Assembly (NCBI GenBank): GCA_016208165.1
Contig: JACQYL010000024.1
Span: forward strand, 67,234-131,233
Direction: 5' to 3'
From: Deltaproteobacteria bacterium
Lineage (GTDB): Bacteria; Desulfobacterota; Desulfarculia; JACQYL01
Length of the DNA: 64,000 nucleotides
Of this stretch, positions 28,708 through 47,168 are shown one piece after another. The translations under genes were made by a program, and so were the position numbers. Position 1 is the stretch's first letter; the number at the start of each line of letters is the position of its first letter. The notes beneath the pieces were generated by a model that made no database searches, was not told where the DNA came from, and saw only the letters and a program-made list of their open reading frames with translations.

Positions 28708-28755
28708 TTCTTAGACCTTTCACTCCATCCGTAAAGGCCTGTGTGTTTCCGCGTG

Positions 28756-31095: not shown

Positions 31096-32475
31096 ATGAC
31101 GGAACACGAGAAGAGAGAACTGGCTCGAGGGAGGCTTAAAAAAGAAGGAATCGAGTTTATTCTGGCTCAATTCGTCGACATCCATGGAGGACCGAAGGTT
31201 AAGCAGGTGCCGGTCGAATGTTTCGATGACATCGTGGACAGTGGCGCGGGATTCGCCGGCGGCGCCGTGTGGGGTGTAGGTCAAGGCCCCGAGAGTCACG
31301 ACCTCATGGCCCGCGCTGACGTCGAAACATTCCGCCAGTTGCCGTGGAAGCCCAATGTGGCCGTGGTCAACTGCGACCTTTTCGTAGACGGCAAATCCTG
31401 GCCGTATTGCCCTCGAACCAATCTGAAACGAATGCTGAATGAGTTCGCTAAAGAGGGATACGCGTACAACGGAGGGTTCGAACCGGAGCATTTCCTGGTG
31501 CAGCGCAACGAGGACGGAACCATCAAGCCTTGGGATCCGCTCGGAATCGATACATTGTCCAAGCCGTGCTATGATTTCAGAGGCATTTGCCAGGCCATGG
31601 ATTACCTTCAGGAAATCATCCGCTATGGCAACCAGATGGGATTCGAGATCTATCAGAGCGACCATGAAGACGCCAATGGACAATTCGAAATCAATTTCGG
31701 GTGGACGGACGCCCTTCACGCTGCCGACCGTTTGACCCTTTTCCGCATGATGGCTGGACAGATCGCCAATAAATTCGGGGCCATCTGCACGTTCATGGCC
31801 AAACCCTTTGGAAACAAGACCGGTTCCGCAGCCCATCTGCATTTTCACGTCGCCGACGCCACAACGGGTAAGAACCTCTTTCCTTTGGGAGACGGCGAGC
31901 AGGATTCAAAAGGACTCGGAATATCGAAACTGGCTACCTATTTCGTCGGCGGACTGCTGAAACACGTCAGGGCCATAACAGCCATATCTTCCCCTCTGAT
32001 CAATTGCTATCGCCGCATCCAGAGCGGAGAATTCGTCTACTCGTCCACTTCAGGATATACATGGACGCCGTCTTTTGCTTCTTACGGAGACAACAACCGG
32101 ACCCAACTGTTCCGTTCTCCCGACAATAAGCGTTTTGAAGACCGCTCTCCTTCGGCCATGGTGAACCCCTATCTGTTGTGCGCCGTGCAAGTCGCCGCCG
32201 GACTCGACGGCATCAGGAATCAGATCGATCCCGGCGATCCTATTTGTGCGGAAAACGTTTGGAACCTGTCCTACGAGCAACGGCGGAAACGCGGAATGAT
32301 CCTCTTGCCGCAGAACTTGTTGGAAGCGATCGAGGAATTGGAGCAAGACGAAGTGGTGAAATCCGCCCTCGGCCCCATCGCCGGCGAGTATATCCGTCTG
32401 AAAAAAGGCGAGTGGGGCGAATTCATGCGTCACGTCACTACGTGGGAGCTGAAACGCTACCTCACCTTCCTGTAA
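31096..32475 (+). CDS. glnT: Glutamine synthetase-like gamma-glutamyl ligase (GlnT type)
   Basis: A 459-residue protein with the glutamine synthetase beta-grasp N-terminus and catalytic domain (GFEPEHF, DHEDANGQFEINFGW, GSAAHLHFHVAD, NRTQLFRSPD). It belongs to the GlnT/GmaS group, whose members ligate ammonia, methylamine or other amines to the gamma-carboxyl of glutamate with ATP. AAAGGAGG eight bases before ATG 31096 decides the start; upstream in-frame ATGs (31057, 31060, 31075) are alternatives. Neighbouring amine-methyltransferase and N-methylglutamate-synthase-like genes favour an amine rather than ammonia as substrate. That assignment is inference. Confidence 0.85.
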   Translation: MTEHEKRELARGRLKKEGIEFILAQFVDIHGGPKVKQVPVECFDDIVDSGAGFAGGAVWGVGQGPESHDLMARADVETFRQLPWKPNVAVVNCDLFVDGKSWPYCPRTNLKRMLNEFAKEGYAYNGGFEPEHFLVQRNEDGTIKPWDPLGIDTLSKPCYDFRGICQAMDYLQEIIRYGNQMGFEIYQSDHEDANGQFEINFGWTDALHAADRLTLFRMMAGQIANKFGAICTFMAKPFGNKTGSAAHLHFHVADATTGKNLFPLGDGEQDSKGLGISKLATYFVGGLLKHVRAITAISSPLINCYRRIQSGEFVYSSTSGYTWTPSFASYGDNNRTQLFRSPDNKRFEDRSPSAMVNPYLLCAVQVAAGLDGIRNQIDPGDPICAENVWNLSYEQRRKRGMILLPQNLLEAIEELEQDEVVKSALGPIAGEYIRLKKGEWGEFMRHVTTWELKRYLTFL

Positions 32476-32494
32476 GCATCGCAGTCTTTCTCAC

Positions 32495-32520
32495 GGCCGG
32501 GGGACTTGGGTCCTCCGGCC
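32495..32520. terminator. Hairpin between convergent glnT and KaiC-XRE-cupin genes
   Basis: An eleven-base stem, GGCCGGGGGAC (32495-32505) with GTCCTCCGGCC (32510-32520), one G-T wobble, and a TTGG loop. There is no U-tract on either side, so it is a structural barrier or Rho-assisted end rather than a textbook intrinsic terminator. It sits in the 85-bp gap between convergent genes. Confidence 0.55.
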
Positions 32521-32560
32521 CCCACCCGCCGAAAAGAAAAGGGGTCATGACCTCTTCCCT

Positions 32561-33859
32561 CTAATTGACTTTGATCCAGAGCAGTTTGGCCGCTCCCGGC
32601 CCCGGATTCTCCCATTCGATGGGCATCTCCGCGGACAAGTATACTACGTCCCCCGTTCGGACCGTGTACATGGCTTTTTGCATCTTCAGCCGTAGCTTAC
32701 CTGCGAGCAGATAGCCCAACTCGTCTCCCTTGTGGATGAAGAAATGCGAAGGGATCGATTTCCCTGCGGGGATCTCGATCACATAGGGGACGGCCTTCGC
32801 CTCGAAATCCAACGGTGTCAGTATCTTGGCAAAAATACTTTCCTCCGGGAAATTGGGTATTTTGACTTCGGCGGCTTGCGTCTCGGGAAAAACCGTCCTG
32901 TTCCTCGGTTCCACTTTGGGCTGAAACAGGGAGCTGACTTCAACATACAACACTTCAGCGATTTTAAGCAGAGTGGGCACGGAAGGATAGATAAAGTTGC
33001 TTTCCACTTGAGAGATCGTACTGGGAGTCACGCCAACCAGCTTGGCAAGTTCGGTTTGGGAGAGTCCTCGCTTCCTGCGCAAGTCTTTGAGCCTGAGTCC
33101 CATGTCTATGAGACCGCTGTCCATCTTTTCCTGCTCGAAAGTGACTGTCAGATCCTTGGACCAGTACCGCAGCCGTTTGTGCAGATTATCCAAATCCCTG
33201 GCCTCCGCCTTGAGGATGCTTAGATAGGTCGTGCCTCTCTCAACGGACAACTCGATGGCCACTTGCGCGATCTGATTGACTTGAGCCCGGAGTCGGGAGG
33301 AATGAGCATTCTTTTCCGCAATCCAGTAGGCAATGGTCTGCAACTCGTACAATCGAGGGCAGGAATGGGAATAAAAGCCCAAGAAACGCTCTTCTCCCCC
33401 CCAGAGTTCCTGCATGCCGGTAATGCTCTCAAACACCAGGCGCACGTCTCCCTTCATTTGAGCTTGGAGACCGTACAAGACCTCCATGAACGCATTGAGG
33501 TCAGCCGGTTCGTCCACTCTGACAATGTTACACGGCCACTGGGCGCCGGGCGTATTGTAGAAATCCATGAAAACCGGAGATCCCGCGCCCTTGCCTTTGG
33601 TGAAACAGTCCAGAACCGTGAGATTCTGGTACTCGGCCAAGGGGCCCAGCTTCTGGAGAAGATTTCTGGGGGAACGGTCGAAGCTCACGTATATGATGGA
33701 CTTGTTCAGACTTTGAGAGATTTGGACGAAGTTGAGACAGAATACGGAGGCCAGGATGCCGGCGTCGTCATACCAGATCACATTGTCCCCGATGAACAAC
33801 CCTCCTAGCAGACGGTCCAGCTGGCTCACGCCCGAACCGACCCTCAACGGTTCCGACAT
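32561..33859 (-). CDS. XRE-cupin regulator fused to a degenerate KaiC/RecA-like domain
   Basis: A 432-residue protein. Residues ~1-240 read like a KaiC-type RecA fold (GVSQLDRLLGGLFIGDNVIW, then SIIYVSFDRSPRNLL), but the Walker A loop is replaced by WYDDAGILAS with no GKT. Residues ~265-325 are an XRE helix-turn-helix (LSQTELAKLVGVTPSTISQVE); residues ~350-432 are a cupin (HFFIHKGDELGYLLAGKLRL). ATG 33859 is chosen because GAGGAG sits just upstream; a longer start at 33898 has none. It is convergent with glnT and divergent from the permease operon, so it probably controls one or both. The cupin suggests small-molecule sensing. Confidence 0.85.
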   Translation of the reverse strand: MSEPLRVGSGVSQLDRLLGGLFIGDNVIWYDDAGILASVFCLNFVQISQSLNKSIIYVSFDRSPRNLLQKLGPLAEYQNLTVLDCFTKGKGAGSPVFMDFYNTPGAQWPCNIVRVDEPADLNAFMEVLYGLQAQMKGDVRLVFESITGMQELWGGEERFLGFYSHSCPRLYELQTIAYWIAEKNAHSSRLRAQVNQIAQVAIELSVERGTTYLSILKAEARDLDNLHKRLRYWSKDLTVTFEQEKMDSGLIDMGLRLKDLRRKRGLSQTELAKLVGVTPSTISQVESNFIYPSVPTLLKIAEVLYVEVSSLFQPKVEPRNRTVFPETQAAEVKIPNFPEESIFAKILTPLDFEAKAVPYVIEIPAGKSIPSHFFIHKGDELGYLLAGKLRLKMQKAMYTVRTGDVVYLSAEMPIEWENPGPGAAKLLWIKVN

Positions 33860-33924
33860 CAGACACTCCTCTATACGTTTCGAGATAGTTTCATGCAAGT
33901 AAAATTTGTTTCATATTATTGTTC

Positions 33925-33946
33925 GTATGTGAACTTAAGTACATAC
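33925..33946. promoter_or_regulatory. Candidate operator near the KaiC-XRE-cupin gene start
   Basis: GTATGT and ACATAC arms enclose GAACTTAAGT, giving a near-palindrome centred on CTTAAG. It lies about 70 bp upstream of the regulator's start and could mediate autoregulation. This rests on symmetry and position only. Confidence 0.4.
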
Positions 33947-34188
33947 AGCCCGACTACCCTAAACATTAGTAATACTGTACCTGTGGCAAATCGCTTTACA
34001 TACGTTAGAAGAATTCGCGTCACGAGTCAACAGCCCCGGCCCGCCTCTCGAACACCGGGACACTATCCTGGAAGGCCGTCGCACCAAGTTCCCAAAATTC
34101 CCCAAAGCCGCGATTCGAGCCTATCTTGGGGATTTCCCATACTTTATCTGTATTCAAAAAGTTTTCCCGCGACGCAACGCTTTTGTCC

Positions 34189-34217
34189 TTGACAGATTCT
34201 CTTTCCCAATATTAAAG
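34189..34217 (+). promoter_or_regulatory. Promoter of the small-membrane-protein/APC permease operon
   Basis: TTGACA (34189-34194) followed after about 15-17 bases by TATTAAAG (34210-34217). It reads toward the gene at 34382, leaving a leader of about 160 bases. Confidence 0.5.
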
Positions 34218-34381
34218 TGCCACTAACAAATGTCAAGCTCATATACGGCCCATGGCTGTTTTCGCTAAGAAGGCTCAATGATCCATGCTCAAAATACCCT
34301 TTTCATCGCGGGATGATGGGAAGGTTGTTTTTTTGTTCACCTGCCGTTTTTTCTTAACAAGCAACTGAAGGAGGGAGGGTT

Positions 34382-34714
34382 ATGGCAAACTCGACAGACC
34401 CATCGTACTACCAGTCTGAAGAGTTCAAGAAACGCATCGACAAGATGTTCGGGTTGGACGTCGCCTTTGGATGGGGCTTCGTCATCTGGATGTGGGTGAC
34501 GTACGCGTTCGTGTATTTCATGATCATAGCGGTCTCGCCTTACGCGAGCGGGGACGTCATGGTCGCGCTGACCATCGGGGGCCTGCTGGTCTGCATCTAC
34601 AACACGGCGTCCATCACGGCCATGGTGCGCCACTACAAGCACGATAAGGAGTTCATCTACACAGTGGATCTTCGCCATTTGGATGCGTATCGAGCGACTA
34701 AATCGTCTAAGTAA
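34382..34714 (+). CDS. Small two-TM membrane protein, permease operon subunit 1
   Basis: A 110-residue protein with two hydrophobic helices at about residues 27-51 (WGFVIWMWVTYAFVYFMIIAV) and 58-80, and charged ends. I do not recognise the family. AAGGAGGGAGGG before the ATG predicts strong translation. It is the first gene of a tight run (34382, 34753, 35187, 35415, 36836), so it is likely a dedicated partner of the APC permease encoded fourth. An assembly or regulatory subunit is one possibility. Nothing suggests an enzyme. Confidence 0.75.
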   Translation: MANSTDPSYYQSEEFKKRIDKMFGLDVAFGWGFVIWMWVTYAFVYFMIIAVSPYASGDVMVALTIGGLLVCIYNTASITAMVRHYKHDKEFIYTVDLRHLDAYRATKSSK

Positions 34715-34752
34715 CGGCGAAACGCCAAGGGCGTCAAGAGGAGGTTTCGGAT

Positions 34753-35130
34753 ATGGTAAAAAAGTACTACGAGCCCCCGAAACAGAGCGGCCAGGGGCAA
34801 GTGTTCGACTCACTGTTTCTTCTCATTATCATTTACGCTGTTCTTCTTTTACCCATCGTGCTGGGACTCACCGCAGGAAAGACCGTTACGCAAGCGCCTG
34901 AAAACATCACGTGGGAAACCTTGGGGCAAAACCCCGTCATGCAGAAACAATGGGAAAAATTAGGCATGACGGCCGAAAACGCTGCCGAGTACATCACGGC
35001 CCGGTTCGATTACACCATCAATCCCGTCGCTCTGATCATCACAGCGGTCGTTATCATTGGCTACTTCGTGCTCATGCTCCGTTTGTCGGACAAAGAATAT
35101 CGGGACGTCATACATGAAAAGTTCGACTAA
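34753..35130 (+). CDS. Small two-TM membrane protein, permease operon subunit 2
   Basis: A 125-residue protein: first helix at about residues 20-41 (SLFLLIIIYAVLLLPIVLGL), a ~45-residue likely extracytoplasmic loop (rich in E, N, Q), and a second helix near 91-110. GAGGAGG precedes the ATG. It is 38 bp after the previous gene. It resembles a small symporter subunit in layout only; I cannot assign a family. The exposed loop would be suited to contacting the permease or a ligand, which is inference. Confidence 0.75.
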   Translation: MVKKYYEPPKQSGQGQVFDSLFLLIIIYAVLLLPIVLGLTAGKTVTQAPENITWETLGQNPVMQKQWEKLGMTAENAAEYITARFDYTINPVALIITAVVIIGYFVLMLRLSDKEYRDVIHEKFD

Positions 35131-35186
35131 AGGAACGAGTCAGACATGGTCAGGCATTAGCGATTGCATTATGAAGGAGTAGCGCT

Positions 35187-35402
35187 ATGGATATATTCGA
35201 CATTTTGGGATACGGCTGCTGGATCGTTTCCGGCATTTTGCTGCTTTGGATGGTCGTGGACTTCTTTAAGGTAAACTCGGAATACGATGAGGAGTTTCTC
35301 TTGAGTTCACGGGAAGGGCATGACGAGATCGCTGAACAAGAGAAAATGTACGCCGCCGAGCGAGAACGAAAAGCCAGGGAATCCGGCTCCAGCATTAGAT
35401 AA
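35187..35402 (+). CDS. Single-TM small membrane protein, permease operon subunit 3
   Basis: A 71-residue protein with one helix at residues ~6-26 (ILGYGCWIVSGILLLWMVVDFF) and a highly charged cytoplasmic tail (Glu/Lys/Arg rich, likely helical or coiled coil). AAGGAG precedes the ATG. It ends 12 bp before the permease gene, so the two are coupled. Family unknown. Confidence 0.75.
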   Translation: MDIFDILGYGCWIVSGILLLWMVVDFFKVNSEYDEEFLLSSREGHDEIAEQEKMYAAERERKARESGSSIR

Positions 35403-35414
35403 CGAGGGGAAGAA

Positions 35415-36815
35415 ATGAGCAATCAGAATAAAGCCGCAAGCCAGGGTGCAAGAGAGCGCATTTCGCTGCTCAAGGTATTAGGTCCCGCCCATGTTTGGGC
35501 CTTGGGTGTGGGCATCGTGTTGGTTGGTGAATTCATGGGATACAACTTCAGCATCGGCAAGGGTGGCGCTCTGGGCTCCATCATCGCCTGCTGGTTCATC
35601 GGGCTGCTATATACCTGCGTGGCCATGATCGACTCGGAAGTGACCTCCACCGTGGCCGCCGCAGGTGGACAATATTCTCAGGCAAAACACATCATCGGAC
35701 CTCTGATGGCTTTCAACGTGGGACTGTATCTGGTTTTCGCCTATACCATGCTCGAGGCCGCCGACGCTCTCGTAGTCGGGGACCTTCTGGTGGAAGCCGC
35801 CAAGGACTTCGGGCACCCGGATCTGGATCCCAGGCCCTTTGTTGTGTTCACTATCGCCATCTTAGCATGGCTCAACTACCGGGGTGTTTTCATGACCCTG
35901 ACCGTAAACTTCATTATTACGGCCGTTGCATTCGTTTCCATCTATGTATTATTCATCGGCGCCAAAGGGTGGGCTCCGGGCGAATTTATTCAACCCGAGG
36001 GTCTGCTCACCGACCTGCCCTATGGATGGCTCGGAGTAATCTCCGCTTTCCAATTCGCCATCTGGTACTATTTGGGCATAGAGGGCACCTGTCAGGCGGC
36101 GGAAGAAGTCCGCTCCGTGGCGCGTTCGCTGCCTTTGGGCACCATGACGGGCATGATGACCCTTCTCATCGCCGCGACCATAACCTGGTACCTGACTGCC
36201 TCGTTGGTGCCCTGGGAATATCTCGGCGTAAGCTACATTCCGCAATACGACGCGGCCAGAGCTTTGGGAAATCCGTTTGTTACGCTATGCATGTTCGTGG
36301 GCACCCTGTTCTCGGCCGTTGCTTCAGCGAACGGAACGATCAACGACGCGGCGCGCGCGTGGTTTTCCATGGGACGAGACCGGTACCTTCCCGTATGGTT
36401 CGGCGCGGTGCATCCTCGTTACAGAACACCCTACAGGTCCATCCTGTTCCTGGTTCCCGTGGCCATTTCGTTTGCATTCACAGGGCTGTTGGATCAGGTA
36501 ATCACTTTTTCCATCCTGTCCGGTCTGCTGGGATACACCTTCATGCCCATCAACATGATGCGGTTCAGGAAGCTTTGGCCCTTGGGCTCGATCCGGCGCG
36601 GATACGTCCATCCGTTCCATCCCTTTCCGGCAATAACCTTGTTCCTGCTGTGCTGTCTTACCTATTTCGCAACATTTCTCGGATACGGCACCCAATTGCT
36701 GGCCATGATGACCTTCTACATCGTGGCTTCCCTTTGGTTCCACTTTCACCGATACAAATACGTGAAGCGTGGAGACCAGTTCCAGATGTCCTGGCCGAGA
36801 CCCAAGGGGTACTAA
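35415..36815 (+). CDS. APC-family amino acid/amine permease
   Basis: A 466-residue, roughly 12-helix permease of the amino acid-polyamine-organocation superfamily, closest in feel to the ethanolamine permease group (VLGPAHVWALGVGIVLVGEFMGYNF, GGQYSQAKHIIGP, LGIEGTCQAAEEVRSVARSLP). It would import an amino acid or amine with H+ or Na+. Three small membrane proteins precede it and a UspA protein follows 20 bp later. Location between a gamma-glutamyl ligase and an opine-dehydrogenase-type gene suggests it brings in the amine or opine handled by this locus. The exact substrate is unknown. Confidence 0.9.
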   Translation: MSNQNKAASQGARERISLLKVLGPAHVWALGVGIVLVGEFMGYNFSIGKGGALGSIIACWFIGLLYTCVAMIDSEVTSTVAAAGGQYSQAKHIIGPLMAFNVGLYLVFAYTMLEAADALVVGDLLVEAAKDFGHPDLDPRPFVVFTIAILAWLNYRGVFMTLTVNFIITAVAFVSIYVLFIGAKGWAPGEFIQPEGLLTDLPYGWLGVISAFQFAIWYYLGIEGTCQAAEEVRSVARSLPLGTMTGMMTLLIAATITWYLTASLVPWEYLGVSYIPQYDAARALGNPFVTLCMFVGTLFSAVASANGTINDAARAWFSMGRDRYLPVWFGAVHPRYRTPYRSILFLVPVAISFAFTGLLDQVITFSILSGLLGYTFMPINMMRFRKLWPLGSIRRGYVHPFHPFPAITLFLLCCLTYFATFLGYGTQLLAMMTFYIVASLWFHFHRYKYVKRGDQFQMSWPRPKGY

Positions 36816-36835
36816 AGATAGGGAGGTGACATCGT

Positions 36836-37279
36836 ATGCGTACTCTGATAAATAAGATTCTCTGTCCTACGGACGGATCTCATGCCGCCGAAAAAGCCGT
36901 CGATTTCGCCATCAAGTTCGCTAAGATGCTGGAAATTCCGTTAACGTTCCTGTTGGTTTCCAGGATCCCCGAAGAATCGGCGTCCGAGATTCGTTACAGG
37001 GGTTCGGCGCTGATCGACGCGGCCAACGTTCAGGACTTTATGGAATTGTCTTCCGCGCTGAAGGAAGCTCAAGAAGCGGGTTTGACAGAGGTGTCATGCG
37101 TGCGGACGTATGCGCGACGAAACATTGCCGCGGCCATTATCGATTATGCCGAAAAAGAGAATTTCGGCCATATCGTGATGGGGTCCATGGGAAGAACCGG
37201 TGTGGCGCGAATTCTGCTGGGCTCGGTGGCGGCGGAAGTGGTCCAAAAGGCCCACTGCCCCGTTACGATTGTGCGATAG
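36836..37279 (+). CDS. Universal stress protein (UspA family)
   Basis: A 147-residue UspA-fold protein beginning with the usual ILCPTDGSHAAEKAV and ending with the nucleotide-binding pattern GSMGRTGVARILLGS (G-2x-G-9x-GS) and CPVTIVR. It likely binds ATP. Stand-alone Usp genes directly after transporters are common and may modulate transport. GGGAGGTGA precedes the ATG. It is the last gene of the permease operon before a strong hairpin at 37335. Confidence 0.92.
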   Translation: MRTLINKILCPTDGSHAAEKAVDFAIKFAKMLEIPLTFLLVSRIPEESASEIRYRGSALIDAANVQDFMELSSALKEAQEAGLTEVSCVRTYARRNIAAAIIDYAEKENFGHIVMGSMGRTGVARILLGSVAAEVVQKAHCPVTIVR

Positions 37280-37334
37280 TCGTGCTCACGTAGATATTGA
37301 ACCACCTTTTACTCTGATTCTTTTATGCCTGACG

Positions 37335-37372
37335 AGCGAAGCGATCTTCCGGATCCGGGGGATCGCTTCGCT
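37335..37372 (+). terminator. Strong hairpin after the permease-usp operon
   Basis: Perfect twelve-base inverted repeat AGCGAAGCGATC (37335-37346) and GATCGCTTCGCT (37361-37372), with a further CCGG/CCGG pair in the loop. The 3' flank has only a short T-run, so it may be a Rho-assisted terminator or mRNA stabiliser. Confidence 0.65.
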
Positions 37373-37479
37373 GTCGAGTTTCTGGGTGGGACTGTTTGCA
37401 CTTCCGACAGGAAGGGCGGCCCCGTCTGATCCTCTGACTCGCGGAAGGAACTCAGGGCTGTTGGTCTGAAGGATTCCGG

Positions 37480-38178
37480 ATGAGATACGATCTCGTCGTT
37501 TTCGTTGCCTTGGCTGCCGTCATCCTTCTGGTGATTCACCGAAAGAATCAAGCCAGAGTAAAGGCGGAACGAGGAGCCATGTTCAACGGCTGTCTTTCGC
37601 TGTTGGAGAACTATAAGGTTACCCAGGACCACGTGTATTTTCCCATTCTGACCGGGCGATACAAGGGCTACGATATCAAGCTCGAGCCTATTGCGGATCA
37701 TGCCGCGTTTCGAACGATTCCATCCCTTTGGCTCCTCGCAACCGTATGGCGCGACGTCCCCTTCGACGGGATCGTGGACTTCCTCGTACGTCCCAGAAAC
37801 ACGGAATTCTACTCCCCCTCGTCCAGGCTTGAAGTGGATATTAAGATCCCCGATGGGTGGCCACAGAATGCGACGCTAAGAACCAATGATCCCGAACATA
37901 TGCCGCCAATGGAGCTCCTGTCTCCCCACATGGACATGTTCGAGGATCCCAGGACCAAGGAACTGTTGGTCACTCCGCGGGGTGTCCGGATCGTATATCA
38001 GGCCGACGCAGGTGTGCGCGCCTACTATATGGTGCTGCGCCAATGCAGGTTTGAAAACCTCGAATTAACGCCCGAGCTGGTCAGCAATTTGCTGGAGCGC
38101 GCCATTGCCATTCACAGGGACCTAACATCGAAACGTCCGAACGTGGGGTCTGAACACCATGAAACTCTGGCCCGGTAA
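37480..38178 (+). CDS. Membrane-anchored protein of unknown function
   Basis: A 232-residue protein with one N-terminal helix (residues ~5-21, VVFVALAAVILLVIH) and a soluble ~200-residue domain with alternating strands (HVYFPILTGRYKGYDIKLEPI, LEVDIKIPDGWP). AAGGA precedes the ATG. I do not recognise a family. It overlaps the next small membrane-protein gene by 20 bases, so the pair is probably co-translated. Situated between the permease operon and the opine dehydrogenase, but orientation and the intervening hairpin suggest a separate transcript. Confidence 0.65.
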   Translation: MRYDLVVFVALAAVILLVIHRKNQARVKAERGAMFNGCLSLLENYKVTQDHVYFPILTGRYKGYDIKLEPIADHAAFRTIPSLWLLATVWRDVPFDGIVDFLVRPRNTEFYSPSSRLEVDIKIPDGWPQNATLRTNDPEHMPPMELLSPHMDMFEDPRTKELLVTPRGVRIVYQADAGVRAYYMVLRQCRFENLELTPELVSNLLERAIAIHRDLTSKRPNVGSEHHETLAR

Positions 38179-38482: not shown

Positions 38483-38576
38483 CCCCCTCCCAAAGCGCAG
38501 TCCGGGCTTGCGGATGAGACCTTTCGTTCAGCCCATACCGCCCATCGGATCCCATCAGTCTAAGTAATCGAATCCG

Positions 38577-39683
38577 TCAATCTTCCCAGTAGCGTTTCCC
38601 TTCGTTAACAAAATGCAAGAGACCTTCCGACGTCATTTCCTCAATGCCCAGCCGTCTCAACGTCCGGCCCTCGGCCCAAAAGTCACACCCTAAAGCCGCG
38701 CTGGCCAGATCGATGATGGCCGTGCACATGGGCATGTCCACGCCCACCAGGTCGCCAAGTTCCACCAGCGGGACAAGGCTGTTCGGAACCTCATCCAGCA
38801 CGTGGTGATATCCCAAGACGTGCTTGGGGGCCGAGAAACCCATATAATACGGGTTGTCCTGCAATACCTGGTAGAGGGTTTCTCCCTCCACTGCGTAACA
38901 CTCTTTGTACCAATCAAGGATATCCAGGACCGGAACATCGAACGCGCGGGCAACCTCGCTTTTCTCCCTGTCGATCTTCATCATTACATTGTCGCAGACG
39001 AACTGCGTGATGATGTCTTTGTAATAACGTAGATCTTCCCCCTTAGCCGCACGCTCCAACAGGCCGGAGTTCAGTAACATGGGCGCCGGGTGCACCACCG
39101 CCCCCGTATTGTTGATACTGGTTTCCAGTACGTTCGATGCGCCGCTATACTCCGGATAGATCCGGCCCATGGTTTCGAGAAGAAGCCCATTGTCCGTCGC
39201 CGGCAGCGCGGCCGCCCGAACCCGGTTCTTTATTTTCATGATTTCCACGTGCGCCGGTCCCCGCGACTCGGTGGCGTACAGAAATGTCTGGCATTCGCCC
39301 AGCACCACCTGCTTCTTGAGATGGTACCTCTTGAACGTCTGGTATACTTCAAGCGCTCCACCCGTCCTGGCGGGACTCAAAAGAACCATCTGCCCGTCTC
39401 GAAGGCACCCCGTGAGCAGGGAAGCGACATTCCTTTGCGCCAGCGCAGGCATGATCACCATGATCAAATCGGCGTCTTCAACGGCCTCATCAATATGAGA
39501 TGTCGTCAATTCAATTCGCGCAAAGCCTTCAACATCACCTTCTAATTTGATACCCCCATTCTGCAACACGGGATCAAGCTCTCGTTTAAAGAAACTGAAT
39601 AACCGGACGGCATGTCCTTTCAAGCTGATGTGCCCGGCCGTGGCAAGTCCGCCGTGGCCCGCCCCAATTACTGTAACCTTCAT
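38577..39683 (-). CDS. Opine dehydrogenase family protein (NAD/NADP octopine/nopaline dehydrogenase type)
   Basis: A 368-residue protein: Rossmann GAGHGGLATAGHISLKGH at the N-terminus, then the octopine-dehydrogenase C-terminal domain with INNTGAVVHPAPMLLNSG (conserved His/Asn region). Members reversibly join an amino acid and a 2-oxoacid into a secondary-amine opine with NAD(P)H. GGAGGT precedes ATG 39683. It faces the XRE-cupin gene divergently. Since N-alkylglutamates are opine-like, it may oxidise or form the product of the glutamate-synthase-like complex at 41-47 kb. That link is my inference; it could also act on an imported opine. Confidence 0.88.
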   Translation of the reverse strand: MKVTVIGAGHGGLATAGHISLKGHAVRLFSFFKRELDPVLQNGGIKLEGDVEGFARIELTTSHIDEAVEDADLIMVIMPALAQRNVASLLTGCLRDGQMVLLSPARTGGALEVYQTFKRYHLKKQVVLGECQTFLYATESRGPAHVEIMKIKNRVRAAALPATDNGLLLETMGRIYPEYSGASNVLETSINNTGAVVHPAPMLLNSGLLERAAKGEDLRYYKDIITQFVCDNVMMKIDREKSEVARAFDVPVLDILDWYKECYAVEGETLYQVLQDNPYYMGFSAPKHVLGYHHVLDEVPNSLVPLVELGDLVGVDMPMCTAIIDLASAALGCDFWAEGRTLRRLGIEEMTSEGLLHFVNEGKRYWED

Positions 39684-40368
39684 TTTCCGACCTCCGATAA
39701 GATGTATGAAATCGTCTTCCAGCCTTATCTCTTCGAAACTTCCACTCAGACTCCGGTAGGAAAAATTGAAATTCTCCGGAGCTTCTTTCCGAACCGCACC
39801 CCGGATGAAAAAGGATTCGATTCGAGTTGAGAGCGATTCGTGAACGACCTTGATTCAGGATCCCGATCGCTTAATAGTTGATCCTGATATATTAAGCCTA
39901 GGGAAGATGCAAGGGAAAAGCAGAGCCGGAACGCAACCGCGGGAGTCAACGGAATAAAGCCGGGTCCCAGCCCTGCGCGTTTTGAAAGGTTCCGTTTCCC
40001 GGAAAGACGTCGAGGGGTATTGCAGCACTCGGACGACCGCTCCGAATTCCTTCCCGAATCCAATGATGGAACCATACGCGTCTCGATTCTAAAGGCCGTT
40101 CGATGAAAAGCAAGGCAATGATGATATTACAGGGCAAAACATGGTTATCGGAAGTGCATATTTATGGAATTCTGGCAAGGAATCCGATCCCGGCCTGTTT
40201 GCTCCGTTTTCGGCTTCCGGGGCGCCGTTCTTCCTGCGTCCAAATCCATTGACGCGGCACAACAATCTTTGCTAAGACCCTATCGTCAATCGGTAAGTGA
40301 ATATCAAGCCGCATCCCAAAGCGACTCGTCATGGCGGAAACCCATTTGTGAAAGTGAAAAAGACTCCA
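39684..40368. other. Divergent control region (opine dehydrogenase / XRE-cupin)
   Basis: About 685 bp with no supported gene. Its main feature is a pair of interleaved inverted repeats at 39855-39897. No clear -35/-10 pair stands out on either strand. Confidence 0.5.
39855..39897. promoter_or_regulatory. Two interleaved 8-bp inverted repeats
   Basis: Repeat A pairs TCAGGATC (39855-39862) with GATCCTGA (39880-39887). Repeat B pairs GCTTAATA (39869-39876) with TATTAAGC (39890-39897). Both are perfect and they interlock, so they would be overlapping operators or mutually exclusive hairpins. They lie 172-214 bp upstream of the opine-dehydrogenase start. Confidence 0.6.
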
Positions 40369-40986
40369 ATGCAAGACCGAAACGACAACAGCAACGGCCC
40401 TTCCCATGATAGCAAGCTCGAAATTGCCATTGGCCGTGAAGTCCGGACCTTCCGAAAGAAGATCGATCTGACCGTCGCGGAACTCGCCAAACTCGCCGGA
40501 CTCTCCACGGGCATGCTTTCCAAAATCGAAAACGGAATCGCCTCCCCATCATTAGCCACGCTCCAGGCTCTGTCTACGGCCCTTCACATCCCCGTCACGG
40601 CTTTTTTCCGCAGATATGAGGAAGGAAGAGACGCCAGCTTTGTTCGCTCCGGCGAAGGACTGATCATCGAAAGGCGGGGCACCCGGGCGGGACACCAGTA
40701 TCAACTTCTGGGCCACAGCGTGGGCAAGAGTTTTGCCTTCGAACCGTACATTGTCACTCTGACGGAACAGTCGGAAGTGTTTCCGCTCTTTCAGCACACC
40801 GGCATGGAGTTCATCTACATGCTCGATGGAAGGGTGGTCTACAGACACGGAAACAAAACATACCCGCTTGGGCCCGGGGACTCGCTCTTTTTCGACGGGG
40901 AAACGACTCATGGACCCGAGGAACTCGAGGAGTTGCCCATACGGTTTCTTTGTATTATAGTTTATGCTCGCTATGATGAAGAGTGA
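40369..40986 (+). CDS. XRE-family regulator with C-terminal cupin
   Basis: A 205-residue one-component regulator: HTH_XRE at about residues 20-75 (LTVAELAKLAGLSTGMLSKIE, Asn-Gly-Ile after) and a cupin_2 domain near the C-terminus (HTGMEFIYMLDGRVVYRHG, GDSLFFDGETTHGPEE). This is the PuuR-like arrangement used to control amine and amino acid catabolism. ATG 40369 is chosen to avoid a long basic extension; in-frame starts at 40297, 40348 and 40354 are possible and none has a strong Shine-Dalgarno. It precedes the glutamate-synthase-like genes but is separated from them by tandem terminators and a promoter, so it is its own transcript. Confidence 0.88.
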   Translation: MQDRNDNSNGPSHDSKLEIAIGREVRTFRKKIDLTVAELAKLAGLSTGMLSKIENGIASPSLATLQALSTALHIPVTAFFRRYEEGRDASFVRSGEGLIIERRGTRAGHQYQLLGHSVGKSFAFEPYIVTLTEQSEVFPLFQHTGMEFIYMLDGRVVYRHGNKTYPLGPGDSLFFDGETTHGPEELEELPIRFLCIIVYARYDEE

Positions 40987-41109
40987 TCGTCCGGAACCGT
41001 GATCGTTTAGCCGGAAGAGGCGGCTGCGGCTGCTAATCCGGAGTGAATGAAGCCACCCTATTCCACCGTCCCTTTGGCAACGACAACTCTGCCGATCCGT
41101 GAATGGCCG

Positions 41110-41170
41110 AAAAGGCCGCGCCTTTTTTGAACGCTGTTTTTTTCCTGGCAGGAAAACTTTTTTCTTTTTT
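41110..41170 (+). terminator. Tandem intrinsic terminators after the XRE-cupin gene
   Basis: First: AAAAGGC (41110-41116), loop CGC, GCCTTTT (41120-41126) and more T. Second: TTTTCC (41140-41145), loop TGGCA, GGAAAA (41151-41156), followed by C and long T-runs to 41170. Both read in the plus direction and insulate the next operon. They occupy the middle of the 344-bp gap 40987-41330, in which I see no gene. Confidence 0.75.
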
Positions 41171-41174
41171 ACTC

Positions 41175-41204
41175 TTGACAGTAATGCTTAATTTGGGCAA
41201 TTTT
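41175..41204 (+). promoter_or_regulatory. Probable promoter of the glutamate-synthase-like operon
   Basis: A perfect TTGACA (41175-41180) directly follows the terminators; the best -10 match is AATTTT (41199-41204) at 18 bp, which is weak and suggests activator dependence. Downstream, AGGTTAACCT (41258-41267) is a perfect ten-base palindrome within the leader and may be an operator. Confidence 0.5.
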
Positions 41205-41330
41205 ATGGATAACCCTGCCGAAAGAACGGACAATGCGGGATATCTTGCCCGTTACAGAGGTTAACCTTAAACTCTACTCAATAAATGACTCTGCCGTACC
41301 CCGGGAGGTTGCATATCCCAGGAGGTTTCC

Positions 41331-42248
41331 ATGTGCGCAATTGCAGGAATTTTATTCAAGCGGGATAAACATCCCGAATTAGGCATGAGTACCGGCGAGG
41401 CGTTAACGGAAATGTTGGACGCCACCCTTCACCGCGGGCCGGACTCTTGTGGCTGGGCCCTGTACAAGGAACCAAAGGAAGGTGAGCTCCGGCTACGATT
41501 TTTCATTTCGACGGGCGAGGCCGGCCGGAAGGATATCGAGCGGATCGACGCGGCTCTCATCGAACAGAACGCAAAGATCGTGGAATCCGCTGCGGTGGGA
41601 TGCACCTTCTCTGCAAGAGTGAAATTCGATGGGGACATCCAGTCCTTTTCCTACGCTGTCGGCCAGGCGGCCGAGCTTGTCTCGGTCGGCGCCCGTCTTG
41701 ACATCATCAAAGACGTGGGCAAGCCTTTCGATGTCGCTCCCCGCTACGACATAGCGAGCTTCGACGGTGATCACGGCCTCGCTCACTTAAGGCTGGCCAC
41801 GGAGTCCGGAGTTCATCCGAACACTTCGCATCCGTTTTGGGCTTGTGGGTTCGCCGATGTAGCGACCGTTCATAACGGCCAGTTGACGAACTATTGGATC
41901 ATGCGCCGAAGACTCGAAAAACGGGGCATGGCCTTCCAGACGGAGAACGATACCGAATTGATCGCCGTCTATCTGGCCTATCAGATGAGTCAGGGCGCCA
42001 CGCTGGAAGACGCGCTTCGGACCTCCCTCGATGACCTCGACGGAACGTTCTCTTACCTGGTGGCCACAAGGGACTCCATCGGCTACGCTAAAGACAAACT
42101 GGCGGCGAAACCCATGGTCAAATACGAGAACGACGATCTCATCGCCCTTTCTTCCGAAGAAGTGGGTCTCAACCGTTTGTATCCCGGGCGGGCCCTCGAC
42201 ACCTCTGAGCCGGCTCCGTTCACGTACGGGCTCTGGTCGCGCTCCTAA
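41331..42248 (+). CDS. Class II glutamine amidotransferase domain protein (GltB1/MgsA-like)
   Basis: A 305-residue stand-alone Ntn-hydrolase glutaminase. Cys2 follows the start Met, with RGPDSCGWA, HLRLATESG, VHNGQLTNYW and TENDTE. It corresponds to the N-terminal amidotransferase domain of glutamate synthase and to MgsA of N-methylglutamate synthase. It would release ammonia or an amine from glutamine or a gamma-glutamylamide. AGGAGG precedes ATG 41331. It is the first of three contiguous genes that together rebuild a glutamate-synthase-like complex. Whether the true substrate is glutamine or a gamma-glutamylalkylamide is unresolved. Confidence 0.88.
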   Translation: MCAIAGILFKRDKHPELGMSTGEALTEMLDATLHRGPDSCGWALYKEPKEGELRLRFFISTGEAGRKDIERIDAALIEQNAKIVESAAVGCTFSARVKFDGDIQSFSYAVGQAAELVSVGARLDIIKDVGKPFDVAPRYDIASFDGDHGLAHLRLATESGVHPNTSHPFWACGFADVATVHNGQLTNYWIMRRRLEKRGMAFQTENDTELIAVYLAYQMSQGATLEDALRTSLDDLDGTFSYLVATRDSIGYAKDKLAAKPMVKYENDDLIALSSEEVGLNRLYPGRALDTSEPAPFTYGLWSRS

Positions 42249-42331
42249 CGGCTAACGGCAGGTCCTATGTCCAAAGGGCATCTTCAGCGACTTTGGCAAG
42301 AGTTTGTAAATACAGAAGGGACGTTTAATCT

Positions 42332-44287
42332 ATGGTCACAATAGATTTATCCACTATGTCCATCCGCAAGGCCAACGAGATACTGAGGGGGTACGGTTCC
42401 ACGCATCAAAACGTGGAGATCGTCAATCCGGACGCCCGTCACTACATCGGAGTCGGCCTCATAAATCCCATTAAAGTCAAGATCCGTGGCTCCGCGGGCT
42501 ACTATTGCGGCGGACTCAGCGACGGGCCCCATATTGAAATCGAAAAGAACGTGAGTTGGGGCGTAGGCGACAACATGTTCCAGGGAACCATTGTTGTCGG
42601 AGGCAATGCCGGCGCCATCGCCGGAGAGGGCCTTCGCGGCGGGGACATCATAGTCAAGGGCAACATCGGTTCGCGCGCCGGCCAGGTCATGAAAAAAGGA
42701 ACGCTCTGCTGCGCCGGTAATTCAAATTTCATGGCGGGATATATGATGTACGGCGGGCGCCTGATTATTTTGGGTGATTCAGGCGAACGTGTCGGCGAGG
42801 ACATGATGGGAGGTGAAATCTACGTAGGCGGCGACGTCCATTCGCTGGGCAACGACGCCATGCTCGTAGACCCTTCGTCTCAGGACATAGACAGTGTGAT
42901 GGAGTTCCTCGACGGACACGATCTGTCGTTCAAAGGCGCCTTCAAGAAAGTCATTTGCGCCGGCAAGTTATTGAAGTTCAAGACTCCGGAACCCCGCATC
43001 CGAAACATGCCTTTCTTCTCCTTTTCAGGCGGCCATGCGGATTACTGGAATCCCAAGGTCCAGGAAGACATCCAGGTCAAATCGATCATCGGACGTTACC
43101 GGATTCGCGGGTACGGCGCCGCCCGTCACGTGCCTCATTACCAGGACATCGTATTCAAGAAAGACCTCGCCGGTTTGACTTCGGACCCGGACGTGGCCTC
43201 CAGGGTGAACCTTCGCACCTTTATCGGAGAAAAACACGGAGGGAAACCGCTGGATCTCAGCATGCCGGTCATGATCGCTCCGATGAGTTTTGGGGCGCTC
43301 AGTCCCCAGATGAAAACGGCGTTGGGAATTGCTTCTCGCCTCTCCGGTATTTCGGAGAACTCGGGCGAAGGAGGCATGCTTTCCGCGGAGCGCGCGGAAG
43401 CCCGGCAGCTGATCGCCCAATGTCTTCCGGGCCGACTCGGGTGGAACGTTCACGACATGAAACGTTCCGACGGCCTGGAAATATACATCTCCCAAGGAGC
43501 TAAACCCGGATTGGGCGGACAGCTCATGGCCGAAAAGCTGACCAAAGAGATCGCAGCCGTTCGTGGAATTCCGGCCGGAATGGACCTGCGTTCTCCTTCC
43601 CGACACCCTGATATCCTGGGTGGTGACGACCTGATCATGAAAGTGCAGGAATTCCGCGAAGCCGTGGGCTGGAGAGTTCCGGTAAGCATCAAGCTCGGCG
43701 CGGGACGCATCCGTGACGACATCAAGATCGCTCTGAAAGACGGGTTGGACTTTATCGAGCTGGACGGCTTGCAGGGCGGCACGGGTGCTGCAGGAAACGA
43801 AGTCCTGGAATACGTCGGCATTCCGACCATAGCCGCCCTTCAGGAGGCCCTGGACGGTCTGGAAGAGATCGAAGCAAGGGGCAAACTGCCCGTCGTACTC
43901 ATGGGAGGAATCAAAGACGGAGTGGACGCAGCTAAAGCCATCGCACTGGGCGCCACAGCCGTGGGCCTGGGCACCTCCATGCTGATTTCCGGAGGCTGCA
44001 TCGCCTGTATGCAGTGCAGCGTCGGAAACTGCGTAGTCGGCGCCGCAACTCAAGCGCCGGATCACGTGAAACGCTACGAGACCGAGAAAAGAGCGTTGAT
44101 GATGCATCGCTATCTGGAAAGCTTTCGCTGGCAGATGGCCGCCATTGTCGACGCGATGGGATACAGCGATATCCGCCAACTATCCCGAGACGACCTCGTA
44201 GCCGTGACTCCGGAGGCGGCGACTCTTACGCGTCTCCCCTATGAACCAAGCTACCGCGATCGGTTTCGCACGAAAACCGTACAATAA
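42332..44287 (+). CDS. Domain-permuted glutamate synthase subunit: GXGXG + FMN/3Fe-4S barrel (MgsB+MgsC fusion-like)
   Basis: A 651-residue protein. Residues ~15-235 form the GXGXG beta-helix (GGNAGAIAGEGLRGGDIIV, GNIGSRAGQVM, MMGGEIYVGGDVHSLG). Residues ~255-640 form the glutamate-synthase FMN TIM barrel (MSFGALSPQMKTALG, KLGAGRIRDDIK, ELDGLQGGTGAA) with a C-x5-C-x4-C 3Fe-4S motif near residue 555 (GCIACMQCSVGNC) followed by GAATQ. In ordinary GltB, GXGXG comes last, so the order here is reversed; in N-methylglutamate synthase the two parts are separate subunits. It would make glutamate or an N-alkylglutamate from 2-oxoglutarate and an amine. Confidence 0.9.
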   Translation: MVTIDLSTMSIRKANEILRGYGSTHQNVEIVNPDARHYIGVGLINPIKVKIRGSAGYYCGGLSDGPHIEIEKNVSWGVGDNMFQGTIVVGGNAGAIAGEGLRGGDIIVKGNIGSRAGQVMKKGTLCCAGNSNFMAGYMMYGGRLIILGDSGERVGEDMMGGEIYVGGDVHSLGNDAMLVDPSSQDIDSVMEFLDGHDLSFKGAFKKVICAGKLLKFKTPEPRIRNMPFFSFSGGHADYWNPKVQEDIQVKSIIGRYRIRGYGAARHVPHYQDIVFKKDLAGLTSDPDVASRVNLRTFIGEKHGGKPLDLSMPVMIAPMSFGALSPQMKTALGIASRLSGISENSGEGGMLSAERAEARQLIAQCLPGRLGWNVHDMKRSDGLEIYISQGAKPGLGGQLMAEKLTKEIAAVRGIPAGMDLRSPSRHPDILGGDDLIMKVQEFREAVGWRVPVSIKLGAGRIRDDIKIALKDGLDFIELDGLQGGTGAAGNEVLEYVGIPTIAALQEALDGLEEIEARGKLPVVLMGGIKDGVDAAKAIALGATAVGLGTSMLISGGCIACMQCSVGNCVVGAATQAPDHVKRYETEKRALMMHRYLESFRWQMAAIVDAMGYSDIRQLSRDDLVAVTPEAATLTRLPYEPSYRDRFRTKTVQ

Positions 44288-44301
44288 GGAGCTTCCAAGC
44301 C

Positions 44302-46851
44302 ATGACCGAAGCGATTCATCAACAAACAGAACCCAAAGAACTTATTGACGAGTATCAGGACCTCATCTGGATTCCGGCTCCGTGTCAAAAGACCTGTCCG
44401 GTGGGGACGGATGTTCCTTCCTACGTCGGCCTGATCTGGGAGGAGAGATTTGGGGAGGCGATTGAGGCTATTACAGCCACCAATCCGTTCAGTTCTGTCT
44501 GTGGACGGATTTGTGCGAAGCCGTGCGAAACTGAGTGTCGGAGAGGCGAGAGTGACGCCCCGGTTGCCATCCGAAGTCTAAAGCGATTCGTCATGGACAA
44601 GGTCGGCAAGGATTATCGCCTTCCGGAGGTCCAGGTCACGCGGTCTCAAACCATTGGCATCGTCGGCGGCGGTCCAACCGGCCTGACGGCGGCACAGGAT
44701 CTGGCTGAACTCGGATTTGAGGTACACGTATACGAGAAATCCGACCGATTGGGCGGCATGCTATACACCATCCCTGAATTCCGTTTGCCGCGCAAAGAAG
44801 TGGAGAGCGATATACAGCGCGTTCTCGGCCACTGTCCGGGCATCAAGGTGCATTTGAATACCGGATTGGGAACGGAAGTCAGTATGGAAGAACTCAAGAA
44901 GCGCCATGACGCCGTTCTCCTATGCATCGGACTCTGGAGCGACAGGCGTCTTGGCGTGCCCGGAGAGAAAGAGGGCGTTCAAGGCCTGTACGGCATCGAT
45001 TTCCTGAACGATTACAGCGCCGGCGTCGATATCTCTCTGCCTCAGAAAGCGGTGGTCATTGGCGGAGGAAACGTCGCCATGGACGTGGCTCGAACCGCTT
45101 TGAGGGCGGGCGCCAGAGACCTTAAGCTCTATTGTCTCGAGTCCCGGAAAGAAATGCCGGCCTGGAAACATGAAATCGAACAGGCGGAGGCGGAGGGAAT
45201 CGCGATCAACCCCTCCTGGGGAGTTAAACAGATCCTGGTCCGCGACAACAAGGTGACCGGTGTCGAACTCAAGCGCTGCACTTCTGTTTTCGACAGAGAA
45301 GGTCGCTTCAACCCTACTTACGATGACAGCGTCACCATGACGGTCGAAGCCGGAGCGGTACTTCTGGCTATTGGACTCCAAAGCATTAACGATGAACTCC
45401 AAGGTCTCGGAATGATGAGCCGCGGTCTGGTGAGAGCGGATTTCGACACGATGCGAACTTCCGATCCGAAAGTCTTCGCAGGCGGAGACTGCGCCTTTGG
45501 ACCCTCGGCGGTCGTGCACGCCATGCATCACGGGCACAAAGCCGCTTATTACATTCGCGCGTTCCTGGAAGGGCGCGAGAATCCCCTGCCCTATACCACG
45601 CCCTACCGCACACGCATGGTTCCCGTTGCCCAGGATCCTATGTGGGAGAAGCTTCCCAGAGAAGAACAGGAATTTCGTCCCTTCCAACCGGATCAGGATT
45701 CCTCTTTCGAAAACGAATCCACCTACAGTTGGGATGCGGCCAAACGGCAGGCCGCCCGATGCTTGCGATGTGACGCAGAAACCGGTCACTCCGACTACAC
45801 GCGGCAGGCTCGGGAAACCATCCACGCCATGGCTAGACTCAAGCCCGGTGATACCGATACGCTCAGGCGGCTGACTCTCGAGCGCCTGAAACCCCGCGAA
45901 AACCCGTTTCCACCGAGCCGCCCCGCGCACATCGAAGATCTGGTCTTCCTTTCCGCGGCCCTCACAAGACTGGTCATCGATCCTTACCGCGAGAAGTGCG
46001 CAACGCAAACAAAACTCGGGGCTTCGTTCGAGTTACAGCAGCCGTATCTGTTCGCCGGGTTTGATGACGTCTCGCAAGACATTCAGCAGGCCCTGGCGTC
46101 GGGGCTCCGTTCGACGGGCTGCGCATACATAGGCAGGAAGCCGCTTTACACCGGTAACGGCGGGGACGGGGGGAATCGACCGCCAATGTGGATCCAACTC
46201 CTTCTCTCGGCCGATGATAAACCCCATGCCGAGGCGAACGGAATCGTCTACGTATTGGGCGGCCGTTTCCAACCTGTGAAGCTGAAACCTCTTCGGGAAG
46301 GGCAGCTCCTGGGTTTATGCGTCGCAGGGCCCATCATCGAGGAAGCCGTGCCCTTCGCCTTGGAACAGCAGTATGACCTCCTGGTTCTCGACGGCACGGC
46401 CGGCATCGAAAAGCCCTGGGTGGAGCTTACGGGGGCTCCGGACTTGAGCGTCATGCGGGACGCCATCCGCGTCCTCCGGAGACTCAATCGGGAAGAGGAC
46501 ATTGCCCTGGCCTATTTTGGCGGATTACGATCCGGTACGGACGTGGCCAAGGCACTCGCCATCAATTGCAATGCGGGCATTTTCTCCGTGGCGATGGGAA
46601 TCGCCCTGGGCGGAACCATCAACGGGGGCCGCCTGGATTTCGACAGCAGCAGGACCATCGAAGAACGCCAATTGGCGGTTGAGAACTGGATCAAAGGAAC
46701 GGCCCAGGAAACGGCCATCATCGCACGCTGTACCGGAAAGACCAACGTGCACAACCTCGAACCCGAAGACATGCGCAGCATCACCCTGATCACGTCTGAA
46801 GCTATGGGCATACCCATGGCTTCGGGGAGCGAGAAGAGGGAAGGATTCTAG
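44302..46851 (+). CDS. GltD-like FAD/NAD(P) reductase fused to a cysteine-less FMN-barrel-like domain
   Basis: An 849-residue protein. Residues 1-95 carry the GltD-type 4Fe-4S domain (CQKTCPVGTDVPSY; CGRICAKPCETEC). Residues ~110-460 hold the FAD (GIVGGGPTGLTAAQD) and NAD(P) (VIGGGNVAMDVARTA) sites. A CLRCD motif follows near residue 490. Residues ~600-835 resemble the glutamate-synthase barrel (LLVLDGTAGIEK, ALAYFGGLRSGTDVAKALA, SVAMGIALGGT) but lack the 3Fe-4S cysteines. It would pass electrons from NAD(P)H to the FMN subunit encoded 14 bp upstream. The duplicated barrel may be structural. This fusion is unusual. Confidence 0.87.
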   Translation: MTEAIHQQTEPKELIDEYQDLIWIPAPCQKTCPVGTDVPSYVGLIWEERFGEAIEAITATNPFSSVCGRICAKPCETECRRGESDAPVAIRSLKRFVMDKVGKDYRLPEVQVTRSQTIGIVGGGPTGLTAAQDLAELGFEVHVYEKSDRLGGMLYTIPEFRLPRKEVESDIQRVLGHCPGIKVHLNTGLGTEVSMEELKKRHDAVLLCIGLWSDRRLGVPGEKEGVQGLYGIDFLNDYSAGVDISLPQKAVVIGGGNVAMDVARTALRAGARDLKLYCLESRKEMPAWKHEIEQAEAEGIAINPSWGVKQILVRDNKVTGVELKRCTSVFDREGRFNPTYDDSVTMTVEAGAVLLAIGLQSINDELQGLGMMSRGLVRADFDTMRTSDPKVFAGGDCAFGPSAVVHAMHHGHKAAYYIRAFLEGRENPLPYTTPYRTRMVPVAQDPMWEKLPREEQEFRPFQPDQDSSFENESTYSWDAAKRQAARCLRCDAETGHSDYTRQARETIHAMARLKPGDTDTLRRLTLERLKPRENPFPPSRPAHIEDLVFLSAALTRLVIDPYREKCATQTKLGASFELQQPYLFAGFDDVSQDIQQALASGLRSTGCAYIGRKPLYTGNGGDGGNRPPMWIQLLLSADDKPHAEANGIVYVLGGRFQPVKLKPLREGQLLGLCVAGPIIEEAVPFALEQQYDLLVLDGTAGIEKPWVELTGAPDLSVMRDAIRVLRRLNREEDIALAYFGGLRSGTDVAKALAINCNAGIFSVAMGIALGGTINGGRLDFDSSRTIEERQLAVENWIKGTAQETAIIARCTGKTNVHNLEPEDMRSITLITSEAMGIPMASGSEKREGF

Positions 46852-46916: not shown

Positions 46917-47168
46917 TATTCGTCTCGAATGGAGAACCGAAGAAACACGATCCGCCGGTCCTTCCGCAGCCCCTCTATTCCTCCGCTGACGATCGGGCCT
47001 GTTCCGCTCCGGTCATGAAGGCCGACCTGATACGCAGGCGTTCGGTCGACGGTCTGGGAAAGTTGCCATCCCCGGTCGACAAGCCTGAACAAAAAGTGCT
47101 ATGTTTCATCAACGGGAAGATATTCATGACGTCTTATGCCTGCCCCCGCCATGCCCAAAGGAGAAGCC

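Follow-up and report, generated by a model that had tools for sequence, protein, structure and literature searches.

A relative of N-methylglutamate synthase with its own GltD-like subunit, in a probable methylamine-assimilation locus of a Desulfobacterota-related bacterium

The N-methylglutamate (NMG) pathway, made up of GmaS, MgsABC and MgdABCD, is described from Methyloversatilis, Methylobacterium and Ruegeria, and is represented in SAR11 and Sinorhizobium by glnT-glxBCD; the redox partner or cofactor of its synthase has been stated to be unidentified (PMC6237917). Further points of comparison are provided by the glutamate synthase GltBD, by the corrinoid systems that demethylate quaternary amines (MtgB/MtpB/MtcB/MthB) and by the opine-dehydrogenase relative CENDH. 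Here, we describe a locus at 31.1–46.9 kb of a 64,000-nucleotide stretch of DNA (the ‘window’; contig JACQYL010000024.1, positions 67,234–131,233) from a Deltaproteobacteria bacterium, which, judging from its sequence, probably serves methylamine assimilation through a variant of the NMG pathway in a Desulfobacterota-related lineage. The source genome comprises 142 contigs (95.5% complete, 4.4% contamination) and is the sole member of its order in our comparison set, for which the phylum contributes 395 genomes; the nearest relatives recovered are Desulfobacterota and other former Deltaproteobacteria. Labels of the form G### denote genomes (the window genome being G000), L### the loci or contigs of relatives and C## contigs of the window genome.

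A first-pass annotation of this DNA had proposed an amine-to-opine pathway, in which an imported amine is captured by a ligase, converted to an N-alkylglutamate and then handled by an opine dehydrogenase. The genes it named between 31.1 and 46.9 kb are all present, intact and at the positions it gave; its description of a single locus holds insofar as all modules fall within this interval, but they do not form one operon, as the genes sit on both strands.

In the scheme that we favour, an APC permease and its cassette would import a methylated amine, and a GmaS-type ligase would convert monomethylamine, glutamate and ATP to gamma-glutamylmethylamide. A synthase, built from a GlxB-type amidotransferase, a fused GXGXG–FMN subunit and a GltD-like subunit, would then free methylamine inside the complex and condense it with 2-oxoglutarate (2-OG); the resulting imine would be reduced to NMG, with electrons passing from NAD(P)H via FAD and iron–sulphur (Fe-S) clusters to FMN. 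Return of glutamate from NMG, with transfer of the methyl group to tetrahydrofolate, could in many relatives fall to an MgdABCD-like dehydrogenase; here, where Mgd is absent, the methyl step might possibly be taken by an adjoining corrinoid system (MttB, MtgC and a methylcorrinoid:tetrahydrofolate methyltransferase, MeTr), the weakest step of the scheme. Ligase and synthase are encoded as follows:

31096–32475, + strand: GmaS-type gamma-glutamylmethylamide synthetase of the type III glutamine synthetase (GS) family, placed by TIGR03105, a Protein Data Bank (PDB) match and motifs
41331–42248, + strand: class II amidotransferase (GATase), GlxB/MgsA-like, with its catalytic Cys directly after Met1, placed by motifs and identity
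42332–44287, + strand: fused subunit of GXGXG domain (MgsB-like) and FMN barrel (MgsC-like), placed by domains and tree
44302–46851, + strand: GltD-like FAD/Fe-S/NAD(P)H subunit (residues 24–490) with a C-terminal degenerate MgsC-type barrel (approximately 545–845)

The ligase scores 510 bits in a profile search against TIGR03105 (cut-off 469.6 bits), the family under which methylotroph GlnT/GmaS proteins are annotated, and among solved structures it matches best a glutamate–methylamine ligase (PDB: 9qur, 419 bits) and then RhGmaS (PDB: 7cql, 318 bits), with true GSs reaching no more than 247 bits. The methylamine site of RhGmaS is formed by Tyr147, Gln175, Asp177, Glu179, Glu186, Asn188 and Lys30', with Arg312 as catalytic residue, the ammonia-binding Asp50 of GS having been lost (PMC7948447). 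In our alignments all eight of these pocket and catalytic residues are kept in the window ligase and Asp50 is again replaced, the region reading GAGFAGG (50); its other motifs are KPCY (156), YQSDHEDANGQFEIN (186) and GDNNR (331). GFDGSS and HHEVA are what we read in the true GSs, both that of contig C71 in the window genome and those of G001, G285 and G276. Structure match, pocket residues and the missing Asp50 together lead us to assign this ligase, from its sequence, as a GmaS, with monomethylamine as its predicted substrate; the earlier claim that a small amine is captured as a gamma-glutamylamide is well supported by the same residues.

The amidotransferase keeps the motifs HLRLATES, HNGQLTN and NDTE, with its active-site Cys, Arg, Asn-Gly and Asp retained, and shows 33–36% identity to MgsA/GlxB of P. 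aminophilus, Ponticoccus, A. caldus and S. meliloti, as against 20% to E. coli GltB. In the fused subunit we find both the 2-OG/FMN motif, GAKPGxGGQL, and an Fe-S motif of the form CxxCxxCx4C (C556, C559, C562 and C567), the same cysteines being lost in MgsC of P. aminophilus and Ponticoccus. In a maximum-likelihood tree of the FMN domain, a single clade (ultrafast bootstrap 98, SH-aLRT 100) holds the window family together with MgsC/GlxD and excludes archaeal-type glutamate synthases, the genome's own synthase on contig C48 and E. coli GltB; within the clade the window family is a separate group (100/100), not nested among MgsC/GlxD. The complex of 41331–46851 is thus a relative of NMG synthase, predicted to form NMG, and the conversion to an N-alkylglutamate proposed in the first-pass annotation finds agreement both in this clustering and in a core neighbourhood that recurs in many genomes (below). 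The same annotation had called the glutamate synthase ‘permuted’: the order GATase, GXGXG, FMN does differ from that of GltB, but it is the usual one for GlxBCD/MgsABC, where it likewise stands beside GmaS.

What sets the window complex apart from MgsABC, besides its retained Fe-S cysteines, is the fusion of the B and C subunits and the addition of a GltD-like, NAD(P)H-type subunit. The latter carries an FAD motif at residue 122 and an NAD(P) motif at 254; its cysteines 28, 32, 67, 71, 75, 79, 487 and 490 are invariant in the 32 sequences aligned, and an AlphaFold model (predicted local distance difference test score, pLDDT, of 83.7) resembles Nfn, dihydropyrimidine dehydrogenase and GltD subunits. 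Taken with the Fe-S motif of the partner subunit, these cofactor motifs fit an electron input to the synthase from NAD(P)H. The gene is present in 79 of the 80 named core-bearing loci over which our neighbourhood counts were taken (many on short contigs, 37 of at least 15 kb), and most members of the family end, as here, in an additional barrel: the last 300 residues of the window protein form a degenerate barrel that lacks the GAKPG region and the Fe-S cysteines. As this part matches MgsC-type proteins at 2.5e-27 to 2.7e-23 and the FMN domain of its own partner only at 4e-11 or weaker, it is probably derived from an MgsC. Three loci (L033, L034 and L044) have the GltD-like part and the FMN subunit fused, and in them we see no extra barrel; in two of these loci (L033, 393–3503; L034, 9483–12683) FMN and GltD-like parts lie in one polypeptide of approximately 1040–1070 amino acids (aa), apparently without that barrel.

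A literature search, whose coverage left out most subscription papers, returned no NMG synthase with a GltD-type subunit and no report of the pathway in sulfate reducers. Of the first-pass claim that no described pathway has this gene set, what stands is that we found no published version that is fused and equipped with a reductase; the set as a whole looks like a variant of the NMG pathway, and its opine step is unsupported. A natural version of NMG synthase that brings its own GltD-type subunit would offer a direct way into the redox-partner question, and its occurrence here suggests that anaerobe-rich lineages such as Desulfobacterota use a route hitherto discussed for aerobes.

Resemblance to GltBD nonetheless calls for a more conventional reading to be weighed, in which the ligase makes glutamine, the complex is a normal, NAD(P)H-dependent glutamate synthase with an unusual arrangement of its parts, and the locus serves ordinary nitrogen assimilation. 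The domain set, with a glutaminase-type subunit and a GltD-type reductase that would feed the FMN barrel through Fe-S clusters, is indeed that of GltBD, and the GAKPGxGGQL motif is retained. We nevertheless consider this unlikely: the window subunits are separate and re-ordered, rather than forming a single GATase–FMN–GXGXG GltB, and carry the extra degenerate barrel; the FMN domain belongs to the other clade; the partner ligase has the GmaS pocket in place of the Asp50 of GS; the genome possesses a separate GOGAT-like set (C48) and a GFDGSS-type GS (C71); and, in other genomes, methylamine genes adjoin the core.

Conservation of the neighbourhood in relatives, on which the first-pass annotation had beforehand staked its proposal, is what we observe. 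The synthase family occurs in 80 listed genomes, mostly of Proteobacteria and Desulfobacterota, and a core of regulator, GATase, FMN subunit and GltD-like subunit recurs in Desulfobacterota, Alpha- and Gammaproteobacteria. Of the 80 loci, 26 have a ligase of strict GmaS signature in the flank; none has one that carries GFDGSS, the mark of true GS. The core is also repeatedly accompanied by an ammonium transporter of the AmtB family (18 loci), a sarcosine-oxidase/MgdC-type alpha subunit (12) and a Tmm-like flavin-containing monooxygenase (9), with genes for FolD and FTHFS also beside it in some loci; that Mgd-like genes adjoin the core in several relatives is a feature shared with the NMG pathway. 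Across marine Alpha- and Gammaproteobacteria, where the same synthase is widespread, its neighbours include Tmm-like and Mgd-like genes, and surveys that count mgsABC alone may therefore miss methylamine users. Three gammaproteobacterial loci (L086, 2–4741; L087, 1–3699; L091, 3–4493) hold a further GS/GlxB/GlxC-D-like/DAO cluster beside the fused core; the GS in the first two (GSTANLF, GDHEDAPGQLELN) fits neither the fingerprint of GmaS nor that of GS, and so may use another amine.

The locus also has a permease and a regulator in common with the NMG pathway. Between ligase and synthase, we find:

32561–33898, − strand: second XRE–cupin regulator, extended at its N-terminus by 260 aa; no counterpart seen in relatives
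34753–35130, + strand: small membrane protein of the permease cassette, with homologues of approximately 50% beside the same permease
35415–36815, + strand: APC permease, a below-cut-off relative of ethanolamine permeases
36836–37279, + strand: universal stress protein-like, in the permease cassette of some genomes (homologues in L038, L138 and L164)
37480–38178, + strand: permease-cassette protein without a Pfam or NCBIfam match, whose homologues adjoin the permease
40297–40986, + strand: XRE–cupin regulator, with a 64% homologue in the S. meliloti glnT-glxBCD cluster

The three products that accompany the permease (34753–38178) are additions to the first-pass gene list and form part of the module. 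The permease itself is 64–66% identical to those beside GmaS/Mgs in P. aminophilus and S. meliloti (66% in the latter), 83% to that of G001 and 87% to that of L038. In S. meliloti the neighbours of glnT-glxDCB include this same permease, the same regulator and the small protein, with purU, an aminomethyltransferase and sarcosine oxidase beta also near. Further plasmid copies of the permease lie in unrelated contexts, which makes the link suggestive rather than exclusive; import of a methylated amine is the role that we would predict for the cassette. Both XRE–cupin regulators reported by the first-pass annotation are present, but only that at 40297–40986 has a counterpart in relatives. The N-terminal 260 aa of the other give no Pfam match and read like a degenerate KaiC/RecA-type domain (GSGVSQLDRLLGG, the P-loop not intact), making for an unusual fusion. 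A search of the intergenic regions of ligase, core and MttB genes across genomes for a common operator yielded only A/T-rich words; the most frequent, CTTTTCC, occurs in 9 of the 25 regions and is unconvincing, as mononucleotide shuffles reach 6–8.

The first-pass annotation had noted the lack of MgdABCD, and this extends to the whole genome: no MgdABCD-type (sarcosine-oxidase-type) alpha subunit is present in the 95.5%-complete assembly. It had overlooked a corrinoid methyltransferase system that adjoins the locus at 22500–30213:

22500–23168, − strand: DUF1638 protein, closing the corrinoid gene run
23168–25024, − strand: RACo-type corrinoid reductive activase (RACo_C_ter, Raco_middle, Fer2)
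25021–27069, − strand: hydantoinase A/MutL-type protein (HydA) of the corrinoid cassette, conserved in G285
27085–27882, − strand: MeTr (PRK07535, 323 bits; cut-off 259)
28038–28664, − strand: corrinoid protein, MtgC-like
28756–30213, − strand: non-pyrrolysine (non-Pyl) MttB-superfamily methyltransferase (PF06253, 368 bits), with no in-frame stop, TAG included

The methyltransferase has glycine betaine methyltransferase as its closest solved structure (PDB: 9yce/2qne, 290 bits), and the cassette as a whole, with its non-Pyl MttB, MtgC-type protein, transfer to tetrahydrofolate by MeTr and RACo-type activase, is like the MtgB/MtpB/MtcB/MthB systems. It is unlike them in adjoining a GmaS/Mgs-like module, in three genomes, and in having an XRE–cupin gene in its run, in two. 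In G285 a single strand carries, in succession, MttB, MtgC, MeTr, HydA, activase, XRE–cupin, GATase, FMN, GltD-like, a glutamate dehydrogenase-family and a PPDK_N-domain gene, with part of a ligase gene where the contig stops; in G001 the XRE–cupin gene comes after MeTr in the same orientation, and a separate contig, broken off within the FMN-subunit gene, carries the ligase, the permease and the beginning of the core. Among six core-bearing genomes of the phylum, G276, G371 and G161 have an Mgd-like alpha and no close MttB, and G000, G285 and G001 have a close MttB (80–100%) and no Mgd-like alpha, an exclusivity seen in only six genomes that are not independent. MtmB is absent from G000 and G285.

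Together, the exclusivity, the same-strand array of G285, the regulator gene within the MttB run (G285 and G001) and the absence of MtmB lead us to float, tentatively and as a rather doubtful proposal, a pyrrolysine-free demethylation: methylamine would be loaded on to glutamate, and NMG then demethylated by the non-Pyl MttB, with transfer of the methyl group first to the corrinoid protein and from there to tetrahydrofolate. The role that pyrrolysine has in methanogens would here fall to glutamate, the chemistry at a secondary ammonium being hypothetical, and the NMG route would be tied to corrinoid demethylation that does without pyrrolysine. As a substitute for Mgd the corrinoid system is a better candidate than the opine dehydrogenase considered below. 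Two side observations belong here. A radical SAM/SPASM protein (20382–22049), a below-cut-off relative of tungsten or metalloenzyme maturases, adjoins the corrinoid genes; and selenocysteine in the Mgd-like alpha of G371 and G161, suggested by TGA codons, was ruled out, these lying upstream of the true ATG.

Several points weigh against methylamine assimilation by the NMG route as we have drawn it. Of the 37 loci of at least 15 kb, 18 have the strict GmaS signature in the flank and about half show none, and the stem that leads to the fused clade is long, at 1.08 changes per site, so that function may have shifted from that of MgsC. One genome, G077, has an 87% MttB yet no core (in L157, 15920–18117, this gene lies with a 72% MtgC near an enoyl-CoA hydratase and a thiamine pyrophosphate enzyme), and the substrates of characterised non-Pyl MttB enzymes are quaternary amines that bear an acid group (PMC12155760); for these two reasons we regard an MttB step on NMG as a lead rather than a result. 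The amine, finally, could be ethylamine or another small amine. Taken to its full extent, this last point becomes a distinct reading, in which a different small primary amine (ethylamine, propylamine or an amino-alcohol) enters the capture and synthase steps and a different N-alkylglutamate results. Both ethylamine and propylamine are substrates of RhGmaS (PMC7948447), the permease is a below-cut-off relation of ethanolamine permeases, and the divergence from known GmaS/Mgs, at 35–45% identity, leaves room for this; set against it, the monomethylamine pocket is complete, the neighbours elsewhere (Tmm-like, Mgd-like and one-carbon folate enzymes) speak of methyl-group metabolism, and a corrinoid demethylation system adjoins in three genomes, so that we judge another amine decidedly unlikely.

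The opine dehydrogenase, to which the first-pass annotation had given the place of MgdABCD, is an accessory gene outside the conserved module:

38577–39683, − strand: opine dehydrogenase, CENDH-like (Octopine_DH, PF02317, 113.8 bits; cut-off 30)

It is a genuine member of the CENDH fold family, with 1bg6 as its closest solved structure (239 bits), and in G285 a 73% copy lies on one contig approximately 0.1 kb from a universal stress protein fragment and 4.5 kb from a ligase fragment. Opine dehydrogenases such as CENDH work at the alpha-carbon; on an N-alkylglutamate this would return 2-oxoglutarate and the amine, thereby undoing the synthase step. That the enzyme completes the pathway by oxidising the N-alkylglutamate is highly improbable, given this chemistry and its occurrence in none of the 80 core-bearing loci and, at above 70% identity, in 2 of the 395 phylum genomes (the window genome and G285), a distribution that also rules it out as a core part. 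A remnant in G001 (53 aa, 51%) was followed up and no intact gene found there. The enzyme may still be relevant to the window organism.

Two minor observations concern the edges of the module. Immediately downstream of the complex on the same strand, at 47136–48158, lies an O-methyltransferase-family protein that is not beside the core in relatives; and two contigs of G285 (L138, 1–190; L026, 1–190) open with a common 190-base stretch (98.9% identity) where the ligase gene starts, indicating either an assembly break or a duplicated start.

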